Shown piece after piece: positions 1,701 through 17,270 of a DNA stretch of 64,000 bases. The stretch is from NCBI RefSeq assembly GCF_000744785.1, contig NZ_JQMO01000003.1, positions 1,550,001-1,614,000 of the forward strand. Reading direction: 5' to 3'. Position numbers and translations under genes: made by a program. Source of the DNA: Kitasatospora azatica KCTC 9699. GTDB taxonomy: Bacteria > Actinomycetota > Actinomycetes > Streptomycetales > Streptomycetaceae. Each line of letters starts with the position of its first letter. Position 1 is the stretch's first letter. The notes beneath the pieces were generated by a model. It did no database searches. It was not told the DNA's origin and was given only the letters and a program-made list of their open reading frames with translations.

Positions 1701-5608
<3,908 letters not shown>

Positions 5609-6276
5609 GCCAAACTCCTGCCCGAGATCGGCGGCAGTCCCACGGGCGGATCGAGCACCGGGGAGTACCGGGAGGACTGCTGGGTGGGGGACTGACGAGC
5701 GACCGGAGCCTGCCCGTACCACCGTGCTCAAGAAACTGGCCTACTGCTGCCATTGCTGCCTGGCGACGCCCACGGTGGTCCGGAACTGCGAGACGGCGCG
5801 CGTCCCGGCGCGCGGCCTCGCGGCACGCCCTGAGGGCGATTCCGACCCACCCCGGAAACGATCCGGGCAGGGATAGGACACGCGGTAGCCCACCAGGGAG
5901 GACACCAGGTGAGCCGAGTGGGCTAACGGGGAGTCGGGAAAGGATTTCGAGCGCGGAGGACCGACCGCGCCGCACGGGGTACGCCACCCATGTCGACCCG
6001 CTGCGACAGCGGCCTGTGCCCATCCTCGCACTGATCGTGGCCGCTACCACTCGGTTCGCGGCCAGCGTGGTGGTGCGGGGGAGCAGACCAGCCATCAGCA
6101 TCCGCCTCTGCGGAGTACTTCTGCAAGCCCGGCGTGCGCTCCCGAGAAGGCGTGCGCCCCCTGCGCCCCCCATGTTGCGAACTGCGCCATCCGCGATCTC
6201 ATCAGTCGCCCGAATGGAGCCGTGTTACGAGAGTTGACGTCCCATCAGCCCCGTCGGCCGGTCTACGCTTCGGGCC
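5609..6276. other. glgE-glgP divergent intergenic region
   Basis: 668 bp separate the divergent glgE and glgP genes. No coding frame here has a convincing ribosome site or family resemblance. It must carry the control signals for both transcripts. Only the -10-like box before glgP is assigned; no convincing promoter pair for glgE was found. The sequence around 6150-6200 contains the related words cgtgcgctcccgagaagg and gcgtgcgcc and a TTGCGAACTGCG stretch, which could belong to an operator, but I see no clean palindrome. Confidence 0.5.
6264..6269 (+). promoter_or_regulatory. -10-like box of glgP, leaderless arrangement
   Basis: TACGCT (TAnnnT) ends 7 nt before the GTG start of glgP, and no Shine-Dalgarno sequence precedes that GTG. 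This predicts transcription starting at or next to the start codon. A TTGACG at 6234-6239 is 24 nt away, too far for a normal -35 partner. Confidence 0.45.
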
Positions 6277-8898
6277 GTGAAGGCCATCCGCAGATTCACC
6301 GTCCGCACCGTCCTGCCCGAGCGCCTCCAGTCGCTGCACGAACTCGCGCTCAACCTGCGCTGGTCCTGGCACCCGGAGACCAGGGAGCTGTTCCGCTCGG
6401 TCGACCCCGGAGTCTGGGAGGCCGTCGGCGAGGACCCGGTCCGGCTGCTCGGCGAGGTGCCGGCCCACCGGCTCGCCGCGCTGGCCGCCGACCGCCGCTT
6501 CCTGCGCCGGCTCGGCGACCTCACCGACGACCTCAACGACTACCTGAGCGCGCCGCGCTGGTACCAGGGCGCCCAGACGGTCGAGCCACTGCCCGCGGCG
6601 ATCGCCTACTTCTCCCCCGAGTACGGGATCGCCGCCGCGCTGCCGCAGTACTCCGGCGGCCTGGGCATCCTGGCCGGCGACCACCTCAAGGCCGCCAGCG
6701 ACCTCGGGGTGCCGCTGATCGGCGTCGGACTCTTCTACCGGCACGGCTACTTCCGCCAGTCGCTCACCCGCGACGGCTGGCAGCAGGAGCGCTACCCGCT
6801 GCTCGACCCCGACGAACTCGCGGTCTCGCTGCTGCGCGAGCCGGACGGCGAGCCCTGCCGGGTGGAGCTGGCCCTGCCGGCCGGCCGCCGCCTGGTCGCC
6901 CAGATCTGGAAGGCCCAGGTCGGGCGGGTCCCGCTGCTGCTGCTCGACTCCGACCTGGACGCCAACGCCGCCACCGAACGCGATGTCACCGACCGCCTCT
7001 ACGGCGGCGGCAGCGAGCACCGGCTGCTGCAGGAGATGCTGCTCGGCATCGGCGGCGTGCGGGCGGTGCGGACCTTCTGCCGACTCACCGGCCACGCCGA
7101 GCCCGAGGTCTTCCACACCAACGAGGGACACGCCGGCTTCCTCGGCATCGAGCGGATCCGGGAACTGGTCGCCCGGGGCTCGACCGACTTCGGTGCCGCC
7201 CTGGAAGCCGTCCGGGCCGGCACCCTGTTCACCACCCACACCCCGGTGCCGGCCGGCATCGACCGCTTCGAGGCGGACCTGGTGGCCCGTCACTTCAGCG
7301 GCGACGCGGCACTGCGCGGGGTCCCGGTCGACCAGGTGCTCGCGCTCGGCCTGGAGAGCTGGCCCGGTGGCGACCCCAAGCTGTTCAACATGGCCGCGAT
7401 GGGCCTGCGGCTGGCCCAGCGGGCCAACGGCGTCAGCACGCTGCACGGCGAGGTCAGCCGCGCCATGTTCGGCGCCCTGTGGCCCGGCTTCGACAGCGCC
7501 GAGGTGCCGATCACCTCGATCACCAACGGGGTGCACGCGCCCACCTGGATCGACCCGGCGGTGGTCCGGCTCGGCGCCGCCGAGATCGGCGCGGAGCGGG
7601 CCGAGGCCGCGATGTCGGTCGGCGCGGCCGAGCGGTGGAGCGGGGTCGAGCAGATCGGCGACGCGCGGATCTGGGAGGTCCGGCGGGAGCTGCGCGGCCA
7701 GCTGGTCGAGGAGGCCAGGCGGCGGCTGCGCGCCTCCTGGCGTCAGCGCGGGGCGGGGGACGCCGAACTCGGCTGGACCTCGGCCGTGCTCGACCCCGAT
7801 GTGCTGACCATCGGCTTCGCCCGCCGGGTCCCGTCCTACAAGCGGCTCACCCTGATGTTGCGCGACCAGGACCGGCTGCGCTCACTGCTGCTGCACCCGA
7901 CCCGTCCGGTGCAGATCGTGGTGGCCGGCAAGGCGCACCCGGCCGACGACGGCGGCAAGCGGCTGATCCAGCAGCTGGTCGCGTTCGCCGACGACCCGGC
8001 GGTGCGCCACCGGATCGTCTTCCTGCCGGACTACGACATGGCGATGGCCAAGCACCTCTACCCCGGCTGCGACGTCTGGCTGAACAACCCGCTGCGCCCG
8101 CTGGAGGCCTGCGGCACCTCGGGGATGAAGGCCGCGCTCAACGGCTGCCTCAACCTCTCGGTGCTGGACGGCTGGTGGGACGAGTGGTACGACGGCCGCA
8201 ACGGCTGGGCGATCCCCACCGCCGACGGCCCCGGTTTCGACGAGGACCAGCGCGACGACATCGAGGCGGCCGCGCTCTACGACCTGATCGAGCACCAGGT
8301 CGCGGCCCGTTACTACGAGCGCGGCCCGGACGGTCTGCCGCACCGGTGGATCGCGATGGTCCGGCACACCCTGGTCACCCTGGGCCCCAAGGTGCTGGCC
8401 GGGCGGATGGTCCGGGAGTACGTGGAGAAGCTCTACGCCCCGGCCGCGATCGCCCAGCGCGAGCTGTCCGACGGCGGCGCGAAGCAACTGGCCGAGTGGA
8501 AGGCCAAGGTCCGCGAGGCCTGGCGGGCGGTCCGGGTGGAGCACGTGGACGCGGCCGTCGCCGAGGCCGCCGAACTCGGCACCTCGCTCGCGCTGCGGGT
8601 GCAGGTGGCGCTGGGCAGCCTGACCGCGGAGGACGTCGAGGTGCAGGTGGTCTCCGGCGCGGTGGACGAGCGCGACCGGATCCGGGAGGCCGAACTCCTG
8701 GCGCTCAAGCCGGTCGGCGGTCCGGACCTGAACGGCTGTCAGCGCTACGAGGGCACCCTCGAACTCACCCGCACCGGCCCGTTCGGCTACACCGTCCGGG
8801 TGCTGCCCGCCCACCCGCTGCTGGCCTCGCCCGCCGAGCTGGGCCTGGTGGCACTGCCGGCCCCGTCGGCCGGGATGGACGCGGGGGTGCTGCGCTAG
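6277..8898 (+). CDS. glgP: Alpha-glucan (glycogen/maltodextrin) phosphorylase
   Basis: Phosphorolyses alpha-1,4-glucan to glucose 1-phosphate. 873 residues; belongs to the alpha-glucan phosphorylase type with an extra N-terminal domain (LNLRWSWHPETRELF), not the classic E. coli MalP type. Conserved parts include PEYGIAAALPQYSGGLGILAGDHLKAASDL near residue 110, shown here only as a landmark in segments (SGGLGILAGDHLK), VFHTNEGHAGF, ITNGVHAPTW and the pyridoxal-phosphate site GTSGMKAALNG (Lys about 618). The GTG start has no ribosome site but a -10-like box just upstream, so a leaderless mRNA is inferred. Divergent from glgE, so synthesis and breakdown of storage glucan share one intergenic region. 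Its stop is followed by a strong hairpin before the convergent minus-strand genes. Confidence 0.95.
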   Translation: MKAIRRFTVRTVLPERLQSLHELALNLRWSWHPETRELFRSVDPGVWEAVGEDPVRLLGEVPAHRLAALAADRRFLRRLGDLTDDLNDYLSAPRWYQGAQTVEPLPAAIAYFSPEYGIAAALPQYSGGLGILAGDHLKAASDLGVPLIGVGLFYRHGYFRQSLTRDGWQQERYPLLDPDELAVSLLREPDGEPCRVELALPAGRRLVAQIWKAQVGRVPLLLLDSDLDANAATERDVTDRLYGGGSEHRLLQEMLLGIGGVRAVRTFCRLTGHAEPEVFHTNEGHAGFLGIERIRELVARGSTDFGAALEAVRAGTLFTTHTPVPAGIDRFEADLVARHFSGDAALRGVPVDQVLALGLESWPGGDPKLFNMAAMGLRLAQRANGVSTLHGEVSRAMFGALWPGFDSAEVPITSITNGVHAPTWIDPAVVRLGAAEIGAERAEAAMSVGAAERWSGVEQIGDARIWEVRRELRGQLVEEARRRLRASWRQRGAGDAELGWTSAVLDPDVLTIGFARRVPSYKRLTLMLRDQDRLRSLLLHPTRPVQIVVAGKAHPADDGGKRLIQQLVAFADDPAVRHRIVFLPDYDMAMAKHLYPGCDVWLNNPLRPLEACGTSGMKAALNGCLNLSVLDGWWDEWYDGRNGWAIPTADGPGFDEDQRDDIEAAALYDLIEHQVAARYYERGPDGLPHRWIAMVRHTLVTLGPKVLAGRMVREYVEKLYAPAAIAQRELSDGGAKQLAEWKAKVREAWRAVRVEHVDAAVAEAAELGTSLALRVQVALGSLTAEDVEVQVVSGAVDERDRIREAELLALKPVGGPDLNGCQRYEGTLELTRTGPFGYTVRVLPAHPLLASPAELGLVALPAPSAGMDAGVLR

Positions 8899-8915
8899 CC
8901 CCGGCGCCGCTGACT

Positions 8916-8954
8916 GGTGCTCAGGAGGTCGGGTGGGTCGACTTCCTGAGCACC
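8916..8954. terminator. Hairpin between convergent glgP and WXG-like gene
   Basis: A 16-bp stem (GGTGCTCAGGAGGTCG with CGACTTCCTGAGCACC, one G-T pair) closes a 7-nt loop. It sits between two convergent stop codons and could end transcription from both sides. There is no T-run on the plus strand. Confidence 0.7.
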
Positions 8955-8986
8955 TTCCGTCGGGTTGCCTTGGGCCGACTCGGTGC

Positions 8987-9727
8987 TTATGCGGCCGGGT
9001 TGACCGCGACCGGCCAGTGGCCGCCGGGGAAGGCTGCCTTGTCCACGGCCAGCCCGTGCAGGGTGCCCATCTGCGTCGCCTGCGCGGTCAGCAGCGCGGA
9101 GAGGGCGCCGACAGCGGTGAGGATCACCGTGGTGTTGACCCCCAGCTCCTCCAGCAGGGCGAGGAACCCCGCCCAGGAGAAGACCCCGCTGGCGAGCGCC
9201 GCGATGGAGGCCATCACCACCAGGAAGAACTTCGCGGCCACGGCGGCCAGCGCGAGGTAGAAGATCAGCCCCGCCCCAGCACAGAGGTAGAGCGAGGTGG
9301 AGGTCTTGTCGGCGATGGTGGCGATCGAGGTCGCTGCGGTGGCCTGCGGCGCCAACTGCTTGGTGTACGCGGTGGCCGCGGGGCCCTGCCACTCGCCGGT
9401 CGAGCCGAGTACGTTCGGCTGGATCTCGCCGGCAACCCCGGAGGCCTGGCCTCGGATGCTCTCCCACTCGTACCCGTGGATGAACATGTAGATCGGCGCG
9501 GCGGCGCCCTCGACCAGGTCCTTGAGCGTGTTCAGGATCTGGGTGCCCATCTCGATGATCTGCTTGCCGAACCAGATGATCGCCTCGGCGATCGGGTCCG
9601 GGATCCACCAGTGGTCGGCGGCGGACTGGGCCTTGGCCGGAACGGTTTGCAGATGGTCCGAGATCGAGCCCATCTTGGCGGAGAGCTGGTCCAGGGTGGC
9701 CTGGTACTGGGCCATGGTGAAGGCCAT
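8987..9727 (-). CDS. WXG-motif protein with C-terminal membrane segments (type VII secretion-associated)
   Basis: 246 residues. Residues 1-110 are predicted mostly helical and contain amphipathic stretches. A WxG motif, EWQGPAATAY, lies at residues 112-121, as in the turn of WXG100/ESX proteins. Two or three hydrophobic segments follow (about 147-188 and 198-216), so the C-terminal half is membrane-embedded. Canonical WXG100 proteins are ~100 residues and soluble, so this resembles a WXG hairpin fused to a membrane anchor. GAGAGGA lies 8 nt before the ATG at 9727. Last gene of a four-gene minus-strand cluster with an EspC-like protein and a YbaB-like protein. Specific function unknown. The type VII link rests on the motif and neighbours only. 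Confidence 0.72.
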   Translation of the reverse strand: MAFTMAQYQATLDQLSAKMGSISDHLQTVPAKAQSAADHWWIPDPIAEAIIWFGKQIIEMGTQILNTLKDLVEGAAAPIYMFIHGYEWESIRGQASGVAGEIQPNVLGSTGEWQGPAATAYTKQLAPQATAATSIATIADKTSTSLYLCAGAGLIFYLALAAVAAKFFLVVMASIAALASGVFSWAGFLALLEELGVNTTVILTAVGALSALLTAQATQMGTLHGLAVDKAAFPGGHWPVAVNPAA

Positions 9728-9753
9728 GGATCGGGTCCTCTCTGGTCAGCGGG

Positions 9754-10065
9754 TCAGCGGGTCAGGTTGGAGAGCACGGCGCCCTGCTGCTGCTCCTGGG
9801 CCTGGTAGCGGTCGGCGACCGTGCGCAGTCCGGTGGCGACGCCCGCCATCGCCGTCTGCCCCTCCTTGGCCCGGTCGATCACTTGGGTGACCACCGCGTC
9901 GTAGGCGTCGACCAGGAGTTGGAACACTCCCGCCTGGAGTCGGTCCATCTGTAGGGGCGGGGTGGCGGCGGCGATGGCGGCCATGGTGGCGGACTGCTGG
10001 TCCCACAGGTCGGCCTCGTTGCGCAGGGTCTGGATGGTGACCTGGTAGCCGTGGGCGTCAGTCAT
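9754..10065 (-). CDS. EspC-like type VII secretion target protein
   Basis: 103 residues, almost all helical, no membrane segment. The pattern LRNEADLWDQQSATMAAI, then LQAGVFQLLVDAYDAVV, then GLRTVADRY matches my memory of the actinobacterial ESX-1 EspC-like/T7SS-target family, in which a WD or WxG-like turn is followed by a second helix with FxxLVDAY. The ATG at 10065 overlaps the stop of the upstream YbaB-like gene as ATGA, so it is translationally coupled. The WXG/transmembrane gene follows after 26 nt. Proposed role: partner or substrate of a type VII secretion system encoded elsewhere, since no EccC-type ATPase, EccB, EccD or mycosin gene is visible here. Confidence 0.7.
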   Translation of the reverse strand: MTDAHGYQVTIQTLRNEADLWDQQSATMAAIAAATPPLQMDRLQAGVFQLLVDAYDAVVTQVIDRAKEGQTAMAGVATGLRTVADRYQAQEQQQGAVLSNLTR

Positions 10066-10859
10066 GAGAGCCGCCGATCGGTGAGGGAGTCAGCAAGCTT
10101 CTGGGGATCGGACAGCAGGGCCAGCGCCTCGTTCAGCAGTCCGTCCAGTCCGCCACCGGTCTGGGCGGCGGCGCGCGCCCGCTCGTCGGCTCGACGCAGC
10201 TCGGCCGCGGCCTCGCGCAGCGCCTCGCGCAGCGCGGAGTTGAGGCTGTCGGTGCTCTGTCGGGCAGCCCAGTCCCTGTCCACCTCGCAGCCGGTCAGCC
10301 CGGCCGCAGCGAGCTCCAGCCGCAACCGGCCGTCGGCCGCCGTGCCGTGGCCGGTCAGCGGAGCCGGCAGGGTGCTGCGGGAGGCCGCGGCGAGGATGTC
10401 CTCAGCGAGTGCTTCCGGTGGGCGCGGGGCTACCTGGGGGGCGGAGTCGGAGGCGGCACCGGGGTGGGAGGGCTGCTCGGCGGCGTGGGCCGAGGTGCCG
10501 TAGCCCGGCTGTGCGACCCGGTCTGCCAGCCAGGAGCTGCCGCCGAGGCTCTGCATCCAGACCTCGGCCCGTTTCACGGAGGCAGCCCGCGCGGCGTCGA
10601 GCACCGCCGGCCCGAGCTCGGCCGCCGAGACCCGGCGCTGCCACCCCGGTGCGACCGACACCGACTGCGGCAGGTTGTCCGGCCCGAGCACCACGGTGAC
10701 CGCTCCTGCGGCGTCGTGCCCCTCGGCGCGGGCGGGGGTGGCGGCGCGGGCTTCGGCGAGGACGGCGTTGAACTGTCCGAGTCTGGCGGTCATCTCGTGC
10801 AGACGTTGCTGCAGATCCGGTTGCGGACTCGAGTCGGGAAACTGGTACGGGTCGGTCAC
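10062..10859 (-). CDS. YbaB/EbfC-family protein with two YbaB-like repeats
   Basis: 265 residues. An N-terminal coiled region (PDLQQRLHEMTARLGQFNAV) leads into a YbaB-like core (GAVTVVLGPDNLPQSVSVAP followed by a helix about residues 70-95). A second core of the same shape lies near residues 160-220 (DGRLRLELAAAGLTGCEVD followed by LNSALREALREAAAELRRA). YbaB/EbfC proteins bind DNA or the nucleoid, and in actinobacteria they are frequently found next to ESX-type small proteins. The GTG start at 10859 has AAGGGGGA 6 nt upstream. The stop overlaps the next start (ATGA). Whether it binds DNA or serves as a chaperone for the neighbouring secretion-type proteins cannot be told from sequence. Confidence 0.68.
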   Translation of the reverse strand: MTDPYQFPDSSPQPDLQQRLHEMTARLGQFNAVLAEARAATPARAEGHDAAGAVTVVLGPDNLPQSVSVAPGWQRRVSAAELGPAVLDAARAASVKRAEVWMQSLGGSSWLADRVAQPGYGTSAHAAEQPSHPGAASDSAPQVAPRPPEALAEDILAAASRSTLPAPLTGHGTAADGRLRLELAAAGLTGCEVDRDWAARQSTDSLNSALREALREAAAELRRADERARAAAQTGGGLDGLLNEALALLSDPQKLADSLTDRRLS

Positions 10860-10899
10860 TCGTGATCCCCCTTGATGTTCACGGTGATTGCCTGGATGT

Positions 10900-11310
10900 T
10901 CAATTTGGCTGTGAAGTCTTGCGGGAGAGCAGGGCGCCGCAGAGTGCCACTGTCGGCCACGCGCTCAGCAGGATCATGAAGCCCACCCCCGATGCCCTGG
11001 AGTCACCGGCGCCGAACTGGGCGAAGCCGAGTGCGAGGAGGCCGACGGCGAGCGCGCCGAGAACCGCGCCGACAGCCCTGCGCACTCGGCGCAGGGTGGG
11101 CGCCATGGCGACCGCGGTGGCGGCGGCGACGCCGATGATGGCGCCGATCAGCAGACCGGGCGCCGGGTAGGCAGGCGGTCGGACCTCGCCGGACATGTGG
11201 GCTGCGGTGAGCCGGATCATCAGCGAAGTGCCCAGCGCGACCTCGGCCATCAGGCCGAAGGTCAGCAGCATGCCCCGGCTGACGGGTTTCGACTTCTTAC
11301 TCACAGTCAC
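10900..11310 (-). CDS. Small four-helix membrane protein of unknown function
   Basis: 136 residues: a basic N-terminus (VSKKSKPVSRG) and about four hydrophobic segments (13-35, 50-70, 79-102, 108-128), hence an inner-membrane protein. I do not recognise a family. The GTG at 11310 is taken as start; the GTG two codons later is about equally likely. It heads the type VII-like cluster, 40 nt upstream of the YbaB-like gene, so it is likely co-transcribed. An AT-rich stretch at about 11365-11395 (TATATT on the minus strand) upstream is a plausible promoter region. Confidence 0.6.
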   Translation of the reverse strand: MTVSKKSKPVSRGMLLTFGLMAEVALGTSLMIRLTAAHMSGEVRPPAYPAPGLLIGAIIGVAAATAVAMAPTLRRVRRAVGAVLGALAVGLLALGFAQFGAGDSRASGVGFMILLSAWPTVALCGALLSRKTSQPN

Positions 11311-11442
11311 CTATCGGGTCGACGGACACTGACATGGTGAAGGATGGGGCTGGTAAAGCTGGATCAATATAGCGTCAGCTCACAATCGCTCGACCCAATT
11401 TGAGGATCAGCTGAGGGTTTGGAGGCAGCGGGACCGCCACCG

Positions 11443-13245
11443 TCAGACCAGGCTCTCCCGCCAGGCCTGGTGCAGGCCGGCGAAGCGCCCTTCGCCCGCG
11501 ATCAGTTCGGCCGGGGTGCCGTCCTCGACGATCCGGCCCTGGTCCATCACCAGCACCCGGTCGGCGATCTCCACCGTGCTCAGCCGGTGCGCGATGATCA
11601 CTGCGGTGCGTCCGGCCAGGACCGTGCGCATCGCCTGCTGGACCGCCTGCTCGCCGGGGACGTCCAGCGAACTGGTCGCCTCGTCCAGCAGCAGCACCGC
11701 CGGGTCGGCGAGCAACGCCCGGGCGAAGGCGACGAGTTGGCGCTGACCGGCGGAGATCCGGCCGCCGCGCTTGCGCACGTCGGTGTCGTAGCCGTCGGGC
11801 AGCGCGGCGATGAACTCGTGCGCGCCGATCGCCTTGGCGGCGGCCTCGATCTCGTCCCGGGTGGCCTCCGGGCGGCCGACCGCGATGTTCTCGGCGACCG
11901 TGCCGGAGAAGAGGAAGGACTCCTGGGTCACCATCACCACACCGCGCCGCAGTTCGGCCGCGGCCAGGGTGCGCAGGTCGACGCCGTCCAGCGTGATGCT
12001 GCCCGAGGTCGGGTCGTAGAACCGGGCCAGCAGCTTGGCCAGGGTGGACTTGCCCGCGCCGGTGGCGCCGACCACGGCGGTGGTGCTGCCGGCCGGCAGT
12101 GTGAGGTCGAAGACCGGCAGCACCTCGCGGCCGGTGCGGTAGGCGAACCGCACCTGGTGGAAGGCGACTTCGCGGCCGGTGGCGGTGGTGGCCGGCAGCG
12201 CCACCGGGGCGGCGGGCTCGGCCACCGAAGGCTCGTGGGCGAGCAGGCCGGAGATCTTCTCCAGGGCGGCCGCGGCCGCCTGGTAGCTGTTCAGGAACAT
12301 CGCCAACTGGTCGATCGGGTCGTACAGCCGGCGCAGGTAGAGCACGAAGCCGGTGAGCACGCCCAGTTCCAGGCTGCCGTCGGTGACCAGGTAGGCACCG
12401 GCCAGCACCACCAGGGTGATCCAGACGTTGGCGGTGGCCCGCGAGGAGGCGACGTAACGGGCCATCTCCAGCAGCCCGTTGGCGCTGGACCGGGTGTACT
12501 CCCGGTTGGCCTCGGCGAAGACCGCGAGGTTGGCGTCCTCGCGGCGGAAGGCCTGGACCGGGCGGATGCCGTTCATGGTCTCGGTGAAGCGGACGATCAC
12601 CGAGGCCACGGCGGTGCGGCCGGTGCGGTAGACCCGGGTGCTGCGGCGGCGGAACATCCGCACCAGCAGGTACATCGGCAGCACCGAGGTGAGCGCGAGC
12701 AGGCCGAGCCGCCAGTCCATCACCAGCAGGATGACGGCGATGTAGCAGACCGACAGGAAGACCGAGAGCAGCTCCTGCAGGCCCTCGTTGAGCAGTTCGC
12801 GCAGCGCGTCCACGTCGCTGGTGGCCCGGGAGATGATCCGGCCCGAGGTGTAGCGCTCGTGGAAGTCCAGGCCGAGCCGCTGGGCGTGCCGGAAGATCCG
12901 GGTCCGCAGCTCGAGCAGGATGTCCTGGTTGAGCAGACCGGAGAGCCGGATGAAGGCGCGCTGCAGCAGCGTGCCGGCCAGTGCGCAGCCCAGGTAGGCG
13001 GCGATCACGGCGACCAGCGGGCCGCTGTCGTGCCGGCGCAGCGCCGGGATGCCCCGGTCGATGGCGAGCGCCACCAGCAGCGGCCCGGACTGCAGGGCCG
13101 CCTGCTGGAGCAGGATCATCAGGGTGGCCACCACCACCCGCCGCCGGTGCGGGGCGAGCAGCGAGCGCAGCAGCGCGGCGGGGGCGCCGGGCGGGACGGG
13201 GATCTCCTCGTCCTCCACCGCCACGGGTTCGAGAACGGTGGTCAT
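11443..13245 (-). CDS. ABC exporter half-transporter, catalytic-Glu subunit
   Basis: 600 residues: a type IV exporter membrane domain (about residues 30-310, six helices) followed by a nucleotide-binding domain. Walker A is VGATGAGKST, Walker B VLLLDEATSSLD with the catalytic Glu, and the H-loop is IIAHRLST. The signature is ISAGQ instead of LSGGQ. Its partner upstream has the reverse pattern, which is how heterodimeric exporters split one active and one degenerate ATP site. The ATG at 13245 overlaps the partner stop (ATGA). Substrate unknown; this family includes lipid, drug and peptide exporters. Last gene of the glgX-ABC-ABC transcript. Confidence 0.93.
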   Translation of the reverse strand: MTTVLEPVAVEDEEIPVPPGAPAALLRSLLAPHRRRVVVATLMILLQQAALQSGPLLVALAIDRGIPALRRHDSGPLVAVIAAYLGCALAGTLLQRAFIRLSGLLNQDILLELRTRIFRHAQRLGLDFHERYTSGRIISRATSDVDALRELLNEGLQELLSVFLSVCYIAVILLVMDWRLGLLALTSVLPMYLLVRMFRRRSTRVYRTGRTAVASVIVRFTETMNGIRPVQAFRREDANLAVFAEANREYTRSSANGLLEMARYVASSRATANVWITLVVLAGAYLVTDGSLELGVLTGFVLYLRRLYDPIDQLAMFLNSYQAAAAALEKISGLLAHEPSVAEPAAPVALPATTATGREVAFHQVRFAYRTGREVLPVFDLTLPAGSTTAVVGATGAGKSTLAKLLARFYDPTSGSITLDGVDLRTLAAAELRRGVVMVTQESFLFSGTVAENIAVGRPEATRDEIEAAAKAIGAHEFIAALPDGYDTDVRKRGGRISAGQRQLVAFARALLADPAVLLLDEATSSLDVPGEQAVQQAMRTVLAGRTAVIIAHRLSTVEIADRVLVMDQGRIVEDGTPAELIAGEGRFAGLHQAWRESLV

Positions 13246-15068
13246 CGGGTCACACTCTCTTCCATCGCACCGCTCATCAGTTCCCGGTACTGCGGGCAGC
13301 TCTCCAGCAGTTCCGCGTGGGTGCCGACCGCGAGCACCACGCCGTCGGCCAGCACCGCCACCCGGTCGGCGAGCAGCACGGTGCTCGGGCGGTGGGCCAC
13401 CACCAGGGCGGTGGTGCCGCTCAGCACCTGGCGCAGCGCGGCCTCGACCAGCGCCTCGGTGTGCACGTCCAGGGCCGAGAGCGGGTCGTCCAGGACCAGG
13501 AAGTCGGGGTCGCCGACCACCGCGCGGGCCAGCGCCAGGCGCTGGCGCTGGCCGCCGGACAGGCTCTGGCCCTGCTCGCCGACCTCGGTGTCCACGCCCT
13601 GCGGCAGCTGGTGGACGAAGTCGGCCTGGGCGGTGGCCAGCGCCCGGTCCAGCGCCTGCGCCGAGGCGCCGGGGGCGCCCATCAGCACGTTCTCGCGCAC
13701 CGAGGCGGAGAAGAGGATCGGGTCCTCGAAGGCCACCGCGACCCGGCGGCGCAGCTCGGGCAGCGGGAGGTGCTGGATGTCCTGGCCGTCCAGCGTGATG
13801 GAGCCGCCGGTGGCGTCGTACAGCCGGGGCAGCAGGGTGGTCAGCGTGGTCTTGCCGCTGCCGGTCGCGCCGACCAGGGCCATCGTCTCGCCGCGCCGGA
13901 TGTGCAGGTCGATGCCGCGCAGCAGGTCGGGGCTGTCCGCGGGGGCGTCGGGGTAGCGGAACCGGACGTCGGTGAAGCGGATGCCGTCGCCGTTCGGGGC
14001 GGCCGGGGTGGTGCTGGGGGCCGGCTCCTCCGGGGTGTCCATCACGTCGAAGAAGCGGTCGGCGGCGGTGCTCGCCTCGTTGCTGTAGGCGAGCAGCCAG
14101 CCCATCGACTCGACCGGCCAGCGCAGGGCCAGCGCGGTGGACAGGAAGGCCACCAGGGTGCCGGCGCTCAGCTCGTCGTGCGCGACCAGGACGGCGCCCA
14201 GTGCCAGTGCGGAGCCCAGCGCCAGTTCGGGCAGGCCGACGATCAGCGCCCACAGGTCGGCGAGCATCCAGGTCTTGCGCAGTTCGGTGTCGCGCAGCCG
14301 GTCGGCCCGTTCGCGGAAGTGCCGGGCCATGGTGCGCTGGCGGCCGAAGGACTTGAGGATCCGGATGCCGAGCACCGACTCCTCCAGCACCGTGGCCAGG
14401 TCGCCGTTCTGGTCCTGGGCGGTGCGCGAGGCGGCCGAGTAGCCCTTCTCGAAGTGCGTGCAGAGCATGATCAGCGGGACCGTGGGCAGCAGCGCGATCA
14501 GGCCGAGCCGCCAGTCCAGCAGCAGCATCAGCACGCTGCCGGAGAGGAACATCAAGGAGTTGACGATCAGGAAGACCAGCGGGAAGGCCAGGAAGAGCCG
14601 CAGGGTGTACATGTCCGAGGTGGCCCGGGAGAGCAGCTGTCCGGACGGCCAGCGGTCATGGAAGGAGACCGGCAGCCGTTGCAGCTTGGCGTACAGGTCG
14701 TCGCGCATCGCGGCCTCGACCCGGGCCAGCGGACGGGCGATCAGCAGCCGGCGCAGCCCGAACAGGCCGGCCTCGGCCAGACCCAGCACCAGCAGCAGCG
14801 CCACCAGCGGCCAGAGCCGGTGCAGGTCGTGGTGGGCGATCGGCCCGTCCACGATCCGGCCCAGCACCAGCGGCACCAGCAGCACCGCCCCGGAGGCCAG
14901 CAGGGCAGCGGTCACCGACCCGGCCAGGAACCACCGGATCGGGTGGGCGTAGGTCCTGAGCCTGAGCAGCGAGCGCACCGTGGACCTGGTGGGTTCGGCG
15001 GTGGGCGGCGGAAGCGGGGGTGCAGCGTTCTCGGCCATCTCGGCGAGGGTAGGCGCCGGGTCGGACAT
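13242..15068 (-). CDS. ABC exporter half-transporter, degenerate Walker B subunit
   Basis: 608 residues with six membrane helices and a C-terminal ATPase domain. Walker A is VGATGSGKTT and the signature LSGGQRQRLALARA is canonical. Walker B reads LVLDDPLSALD, with Asp where the catalytic Glu should be, and the H-loop His is kept (VVAHRPST). It therefore supplies the good signature to the partner's good Walker B, giving one competent composite site. The ATG at 15068 starts 3 nt after the glgX stop, and the stop overlaps the second ABC gene. Why an exporter is coupled to a glycogen-debranching gene is not evident. Confidence 0.93.
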   Translation of the reverse strand: MSDPAPTLAEMAENAAPPLPPPTAEPTRSTVRSLLRLRTYAHPIRWFLAGSVTAALLASGAVLLVPLVLGRIVDGPIAHHDLHRLWPLVALLLVLGLAEAGLFGLRRLLIARPLARVEAAMRDDLYAKLQRLPVSFHDRWPSGQLLSRATSDMYTLRLFLAFPLVFLIVNSLMFLSGSVLMLLLDWRLGLIALLPTVPLIMLCTHFEKGYSAASRTAQDQNGDLATVLEESVLGIRILKSFGRQRTMARHFRERADRLRDTELRKTWMLADLWALIVGLPELALGSALALGAVLVAHDELSAGTLVAFLSTALALRWPVESMGWLLAYSNEASTAADRFFDVMDTPEEPAPSTTPAAPNGDGIRFTDVRFRYPDAPADSPDLLRGIDLHIRRGETMALVGATGSGKTTLTTLLPRLYDATGGSITLDGQDIQHLPLPELRRRVAVAFEDPILFSASVRENVLMGAPGASAQALDRALATAQADFVHQLPQGVDTEVGEQGQSLSGGQRQRLALARAVVGDPDFLVLDDPLSALDVHTEALVEAALRQVLSGTTALVVAHRPSTVLLADRVAVLADGVVLAVGTHAELLESCPQYRELMSGAMEESVTR

Positions 15069-15071
15069 TTC

Positions 15072-17270
<2,199 letters not shown>

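Follow-up and report, generated by a model that had tools for sequence, protein, structure and literature searches.

A putative mobile ESX substrate cassette with a tandem YbaB protein and a hydrophobic-hairpin WXG cargo in Kitasatospora azatica

In mycobacteria, the export signal of type VII (ESX) substrates is known to be split between two partners for EsxA/EsxB and EspA/EspC, with WxG on one protein and YxxxD/E on the other (PMC6319747), and YxxxD/E is also borne by PE proteins (PMC6107294). The secretion of EspE and EspF requires the YbaB-like protein EspH, which binds EspE, whereas EspL stabilises EspE, EspF and EspH, and EspD stabilises EspA/EspC (PMC6107294, PMC6319747); EspL does not act on the transcription of espE, espF or espH (PMC6319747). 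Here we describe a four-gene unit on the minus strand of a 64,000-nucleotide stretch (hereafter the window) of the genome of the soil actinomycete Kitasatospora azatica KCTC 9699 (contig NZ_JQMO01000003.1, positions 1,550,001 to 1,614,000), coding for proteins of 136, 265, 103 and 246 residues. It shares with the ESX-1 sets EspE-EspF/EspH/EspL and EspA-EspC/EspD an EspC-type partner pair, a split signal and a YbaB-like protein, which in the mycobacterial case the pair needs to be stable or secreted. In contrast to these sets, the YbaB protein is a tandem, the presumed cargo (246 residues) has a C-terminal hydrophobic hairpin, a gene for a small protein with four predicted membrane segments is added, the matches of the window proteins to Pfam EspA_EspE and EspC stay below cut-off, and the unit lies apart from any ESX locus as a small insertion, in an actinomycete that is not a mycobacterium.

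Parallels also exist among secreted toxins. The actinobacterial WXG-Rhs polymorphic toxins (Zhang et al. 2012, PMC3482391) have a WXG trafficking half related to that of the cargo, and the same YbaB-EspC pair precedes a toxin-like gene at three loci (L130, L132, L134), but the unit described here has no Rhs repeats or enzyme domain, and has instead the C-terminal hydrophobic hairpin and a doubled YbaB. In the type VIIb LXG toxins, effectors are accompanied by small helical partners (Lap1 and Lap2), one with an FxxxD motif likened to YxxxD/E; these are Firmicute systems with LXG rather than WXG, and the part of that paper used here mentions no YbaB protein (PMC9600955). TspA-TsaI and EsxX-ExiABCD, also type VIIb, each combine a secreted protein, helical and with a C-terminus that acts on membranes, with polytopic membrane immunity proteins; the C-termini of TspA and EsxX can depolarise membranes, and a soluble alpha/beta pair holds the hydrophobic segment of EsxX in the cytoplasm (PMC7456083, PMC12744356). 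Purely by analogy, the tandem YbaB and the four-segment protein could play the parts of an EsxX-type binder and immunity protein. YbaB proteins paired with polymorphic toxins were not found in the open-licence papers searched.

The four open reading frames lie exactly where a preliminary description of the sequence had placed them, and the ATGA overlap reported there joins the genes of the 265- and 103-residue proteins. Relatives were sought in 298 genomes of the window's family, followed by searches of the whole class and of the family to which genome G526 belongs, and 31 independent hairpin loci from several actinomycete families were read in total. Among the 298 genomes the distribution was patchy (11 cargo loci in 10 genomes, the window included), with two loci each in G153 and G078, the pair in G078 being identical, and a contig search added one match in Crossiella. 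The order YbaB, EspC-like, WXG was kept in all 12 loci first examined and in nearly every later cassette; as the same-order trio recurs across loci, the arrangement goes far beyond chance. The co-occurrence anticipated in the preliminary description was found, with YbaB and EspC-like partners alongside every close orthologue read.

What connects this trio with type VII secretion is a predicted split export signal. The column of Y87 was invariant in 33 of 33 EspC-like proteins and the residue four positions further on was always E or D, a pattern that occurred within the last 35 residues of 13% of shuffled sequences. The cargo proteins have WxG or WxD in 30 of 30 sequences (W113 is invariant) and lack YxxxD/E in 27 of 30. 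WxG on one helical partner and a C-terminal YxxxD/E on the other is the arrangement of ESX substrate pairs, and together with the order of the trio it supports the earlier assignment to type VII secretion substrates. Pfam EspC was matched by 10 of 12 orthologues of the 103-residue protein (best 8.1e-7), the window protein itself scored 18.0 bits against T7SS_ESX_EspC (cut-off 23.5), and the alignment used as a profile gave weak matches to solved ESAT-6-like structures. The EspC-like protein had at first been proposed as a chaperone; with its export signal present in every homologue, it is better seen as a co-secreted partner.

In the 246-residue protein, the motif EWQGPAATAY was confirmed at residues 112-121. 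Beyond it lie two strongly hydrophobic stretches (about residues 154-172 and 195-213), so that of the two or three membrane segments previously suggested we retain two and drop the third; here as elsewhere, membrane segments are assigned by hydropathy alone. The family-mean hydropathy exceeds 1 between about residues 150 and 210, the WP of the C-terminal motif is invariant in 30 sequences, and an FPxxGxWP-type motif is present in all 12 nearest orthologues. WXG100 and EspA_EspE were Pfam leads in 8 of 12 orthologues each; for the window protein the leads were weak (WXG100, DUF6507, and EspA_EspE with 17.8 bits, below the cut-off of 27), and by itself none of the four window proteins reached a Pfam or NCBIfam cut-off. 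A profile search of the cargo against the PDB returned for the most part designed helical bundles, along with weak ESAT-6-like matches, and was not used. Proteins of ~500 residues in L021-L027 were rejected as orthologues, being weak matches with the WXG half alone in common; among the weak matches of this size, L040 and L041 adjoin a subtilase-like and an EspC-like gene.

The two YbaB cores noted earlier in the 265-residue protein proved real, the first half of the family profile matching the solved structure 5yrx and the second 1pug and 1j8b, and the halves are homologous to one another (hhalign 96.9%, E 1.8e-10). The window protein scored 20.1 bits against Pfam YbaB (cut-off 25.5), orthologues reached 3.4e-19, and YbaB was the Pfam lead in 21 of 23 of them. 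Two separate cores were recognised at 27 of the 31 hairpin loci. In the trios with giant cargo (L130, L132, L134, L079, L080) a single core was found, i.e., 0 of 5 were tandem, which has a hypergeometric probability of ~3e-4 given independent loci, an independence that the loci do not fully have; the core models were built from the hairpin set and are biased against distant cores, although proteins of 146 residues are too short for two cores anyway. The tandem YbaB thus accompanies the small hydrophobic cargo and not the giant one. Because of the parallel with mycobacterial EspH, EspL and EspD, it is likely a dedicated chaperone, a role that the preliminary description had already proposed.

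The same description called the unit an orphan module, which is correct insofar as no ESX locus lies nearby; however, the genome has three EccD genes, none of them within the window, and EccC in one of these three loci, so the unit is orphan only locally. Giant WXG100_2 proteins of >2,100 residues (L079, 11833-19001) and >1,200 residues (L080, 1-4458) are encoded at two of the ESX loci here, each after a YbaB gene and a gene for ~100 residues (the latter without a Pfam match in either case). In relatives, YbaB and EspC-like genes lie upstream of WXG proteins of 1,469 to 1,718 residues; the two that were checked (L130, L132) are Rhs proteins, the latter ending in a deaminase toxin domain, this evidence coming from few loci. 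For other giant proteins with a related WXG half (L131, L135, and the Rhs protein of L133, which ends in an SsdA-type deaminase domain), no YbaB or EspC partner could be recognised upstream, which means that the YbaB-EspC kit is not universal and that delivery kits differ among giant WXG proteins. In G132 a complete ESX locus surrounds the trio, with genes for EccC (an FtsK/SpoIIIE ATPase) and EccD, two subtilases and a WXG100 pair; an adjoining EccB-like gene, and a subtilase-like gene before the trio in G019, were assigned by sequence alone.

The unit is a clean insertion of ~2.5 kb between glgP and an ABC transporter gene. The blastn alignment of the corresponding locus of the nearest relative, G149 (L137), with the window is interrupted between 8957 and 11443, with flanks about 90% identical, and in G149 this empty site is an 86-bp gap, glgP (94% identical) being followed at once by the transporter gene. 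The inverted repeat at the glgP end is present at the empty site as well. Only 2 of the 30 genomes read at this site hold the cassette, namely G153 and that of the window. In another species (G171), this interval is occupied by an EspC-like gene (Pfam EspC 3e-4, YTNGE near the end) and a 754-residue WXG protein, a different pair, and the site therefore takes different ESX substrate genes. The four-gene unit is most likely an accessory, transferable cassette. The glgP-ABC transporter interval (window 8898-11445; L137, L166) has the appearance of a small integration hotspot.

For the 136-residue protein, with its four membrane segments predicted from hydropathy, no role had been suggested before. 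At 16 loci the unit begins with a gene for a small membrane protein, and most of these proteins are joined by homology: the window protein to those of L031, L030b and L117 (E 7e-6 for the last), and L117 onward to a second family, so that homologues open the cassette in two actinomycete families. At nine further loci, a small protein with hydrophobic segments is encoded directly downstream instead. Altogether, a small protein with at least two hydrophobic segments (one in L038) adjoins 25 of the 31 hairpin loci, compared with a background of 16 in 318 (5%) for small genes of this kind. Judging from these comparisons, the closest relatives of the unit have conserved this gene within it, and the gene product is a candidate immunity protein or membrane partner. 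The coordinates of all features are collected in Table 1.

Table 1 Features of the cassette in the window, with the evidence for each
Feature	Coordinates	Strand	Evidence
136-residue membrane protein gene, four predicted membrane segments	10900..11310	-	hydropathy and homologues
265-residue tandem YbaB protein gene, proposed dedicated chaperone	10062..10859	-	profile and structure matches
YbaB core 1, residues about 12-130	10470..10826	-	profile match
YbaB core 2, residues about 131-259	10083..10469	-	profile match
103-residue EspC-like helical protein gene, proposed signal-bearing secretion partner	9754..10065	-	Pfam EspC in orthologues
YQAQE export signal (YxxxD/E type), residues 87-91 of the EspC-like protein	9793..9807	-	33/33 homologues
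246-residue WXG protein gene, C-terminal hydrophobic hairpin, proposed cargo	8987..9727	-	orthologue comparison
WxG motif of the cargo, residues 113-115	9383..9391	-	W113 invariant
Hydrophobic hairpin of the cargo, residues about 150-218	9074..9280	-	family-mean hydropathy
FPGGHWP C-terminal motif of the cargo, residues 233-239	9011..9031	-	orthologue alignment
Accessory insertion with the entire four-gene unit	8958..11442	.	blastn vs L137
Inverted repeat with 15-base arms, likely terminator, at the glgP end of the insertion	8916..8954	.	sequence inspection

A scan for a consensus promoter and for a T-run terminator found neither. The surroundings of the cassette (window 3401-17270) hold GlgE-, GlgP- and GlgX-like alpha-glucan genes and two ABC transporter genes, as judged from their sequences, and gene starts outside the window were set by simple rules. 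Two divergent copies of the cassette stand in tandem in G153 (L030, 4585-13489), with TetR-like and multi-spanning transporter-like genes between them and a DUF5753 helix-turn-helix regulator nearby. Two species share a chromosomal site at which, close to ESX substrate genes, similar proteins of 67-69 residues with no Pfam match are encoded (L030 6026-6235, L166 6148-6351). In G078 the cassette region was found on two contigs in opposite orientation (L031, L039), likely an assembly duplication; the estimated contamination of this genome is 10%.

Taken together, we propose that the helical half of the cargo pairs with the EspC-like protein, and that the signal divided between them (WxG on one, YxxxE on the other) would be read by the EccC of an ESX (type VIIa) system encoded elsewhere in the genome. 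The tandem YbaB would stabilise this pair and, while the cargo is still in the cytoplasm, probably cover its hydrophobic hairpin, which may insert into a membrane outside the producing cell once the cargo has been exported. The most likely use would be the antagonism of neighbouring bacteria by membrane disturbance, from which the four-segment protein would protect the producer. We are highly confident that the unit is an ESX substrate cassette with a YbaB chaperone. Given this, the balance tips slightly towards a membrane-acting effector, its toxicity being conjectural, and the equally conjectural part of the four-segment protein as immunity protein is possible but somewhat doubtful. The account as a whole, in which a hairpin protein that inserts into membranes is exported from a mobile cassette with the help of a YbaB chaperone and an EspC partner, and may be an antibacterial effector matched by a four-segment immunity protein, seems to us evenly poised between right and wrong.

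Several observations weigh against it. Across 14 loci the hydrophobic half of the cargo has a higher mean identity than the trafficking half (50.7% vs 42.7%), unlike a diversifying toxin domain, and no diversifying C-terminal domain of the polymorphic-toxin type was found in the family at these loci. No recognised toxin domain was found in the cargo, and the conserved glycine zipper of membrane toxins such as TelE and EsxX was not found among its 30 sequences (the strict pattern occurs in 12 of 30, at non-corresponding positions), which also separates the cassette from TspA and EsxX. The four-segment gene lies upstream and not beside the cargo, and is absent or replaced at some loci. Finally, EccD was present in all 29 genomes tested of the second family, with or without the cassette, which makes its co-occurrence uninformative. 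A serious rival is that the cargo is a non-toxic accessory substrate similar to EspE-EspF or EspA-EspC, with its hairpin in the producer's own envelope, aiding the secretion of other proteins or an envelope function, and with the four-segment protein as its membrane partner. Such a role, which we consider a minority but substantial possibility, would agree with a hydrophobic half that is the best conserved and has not diversified, with the finding of the trio next to a subtilase (mycosin-like) gene within an ESX locus, with the weak EspA_EspE match of the cargo and with a four-segment family that accompanies the orthologues in two families. However, the patchy presence, the clean insertion and a site common to another ESX pair suit an accessory effector better than a part of the machine, as does the presence of the cassette or its relatives twice in some genomes (L030; L071 and L072).

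It is also conceivable, yet improbable, that the WXG protein is not exported and stays in the cytoplasmic membrane of the producer, with the EspC-like and YbaB proteins as cytoplasmic regulators, the latter acting on DNA. The YbaB family was named for DNA binding and the two hydrophobic segments of the cargo could insert from inside, but the partner carries an invariant export signal and the same pair stands before Rhs proteins. Moreover, a DNA-binding regulator was set aside for YbaB on the mycobacterial evidence, i.e., the lack of an effect of EspL on espE, espF and espH transcription (PMC6319747) and the binding of EspE by EspH (PMC6107294). That the genes are a degenerating leftover, or small unrelated genes brought together by chance, is hardly credible: the slightly lower third-position GC of the YbaB and membrane-protein genes (0.86 and 0.85, vs 0.96-0.97 in neighbours) and the failure to reach any Pfam cut-off could be read in this way, but the frames are intact and the motifs and gene order are conserved across families, so that chance clustering was set aside and the comparative data already contradict the whole idea.

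Returning to the cassette as an ESX substrate unit, it could be extended, tentatively, to a family of membrane-attacking type VIIa effectors of actinobacteria. In this family the duplicated YbaB would act as an intramolecular pair that keeps the hairpin harmless in the cytoplasm of the producer and delivers it to EccC, the four-segment protein would confer immunity in the membrane, and YbaB-EspC-WXG would serve ESX effectors outside mycobacteria as a general loading kit, its YbaB copy number tuned to the cargo. The YbaB-like chaperones of mycobacterial ESX-1 are tied here to a widespread three-gene kit that also stands before Rhs toxins, and therefore non-pathogenic models may become available for type VIIa substrate chaperoning and choice. 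The finding suggests a role for ESX systems in Streptomyces-like bacteria, as well as a possible function of YbaB proteins in chaperoning hydrophobic substrates.
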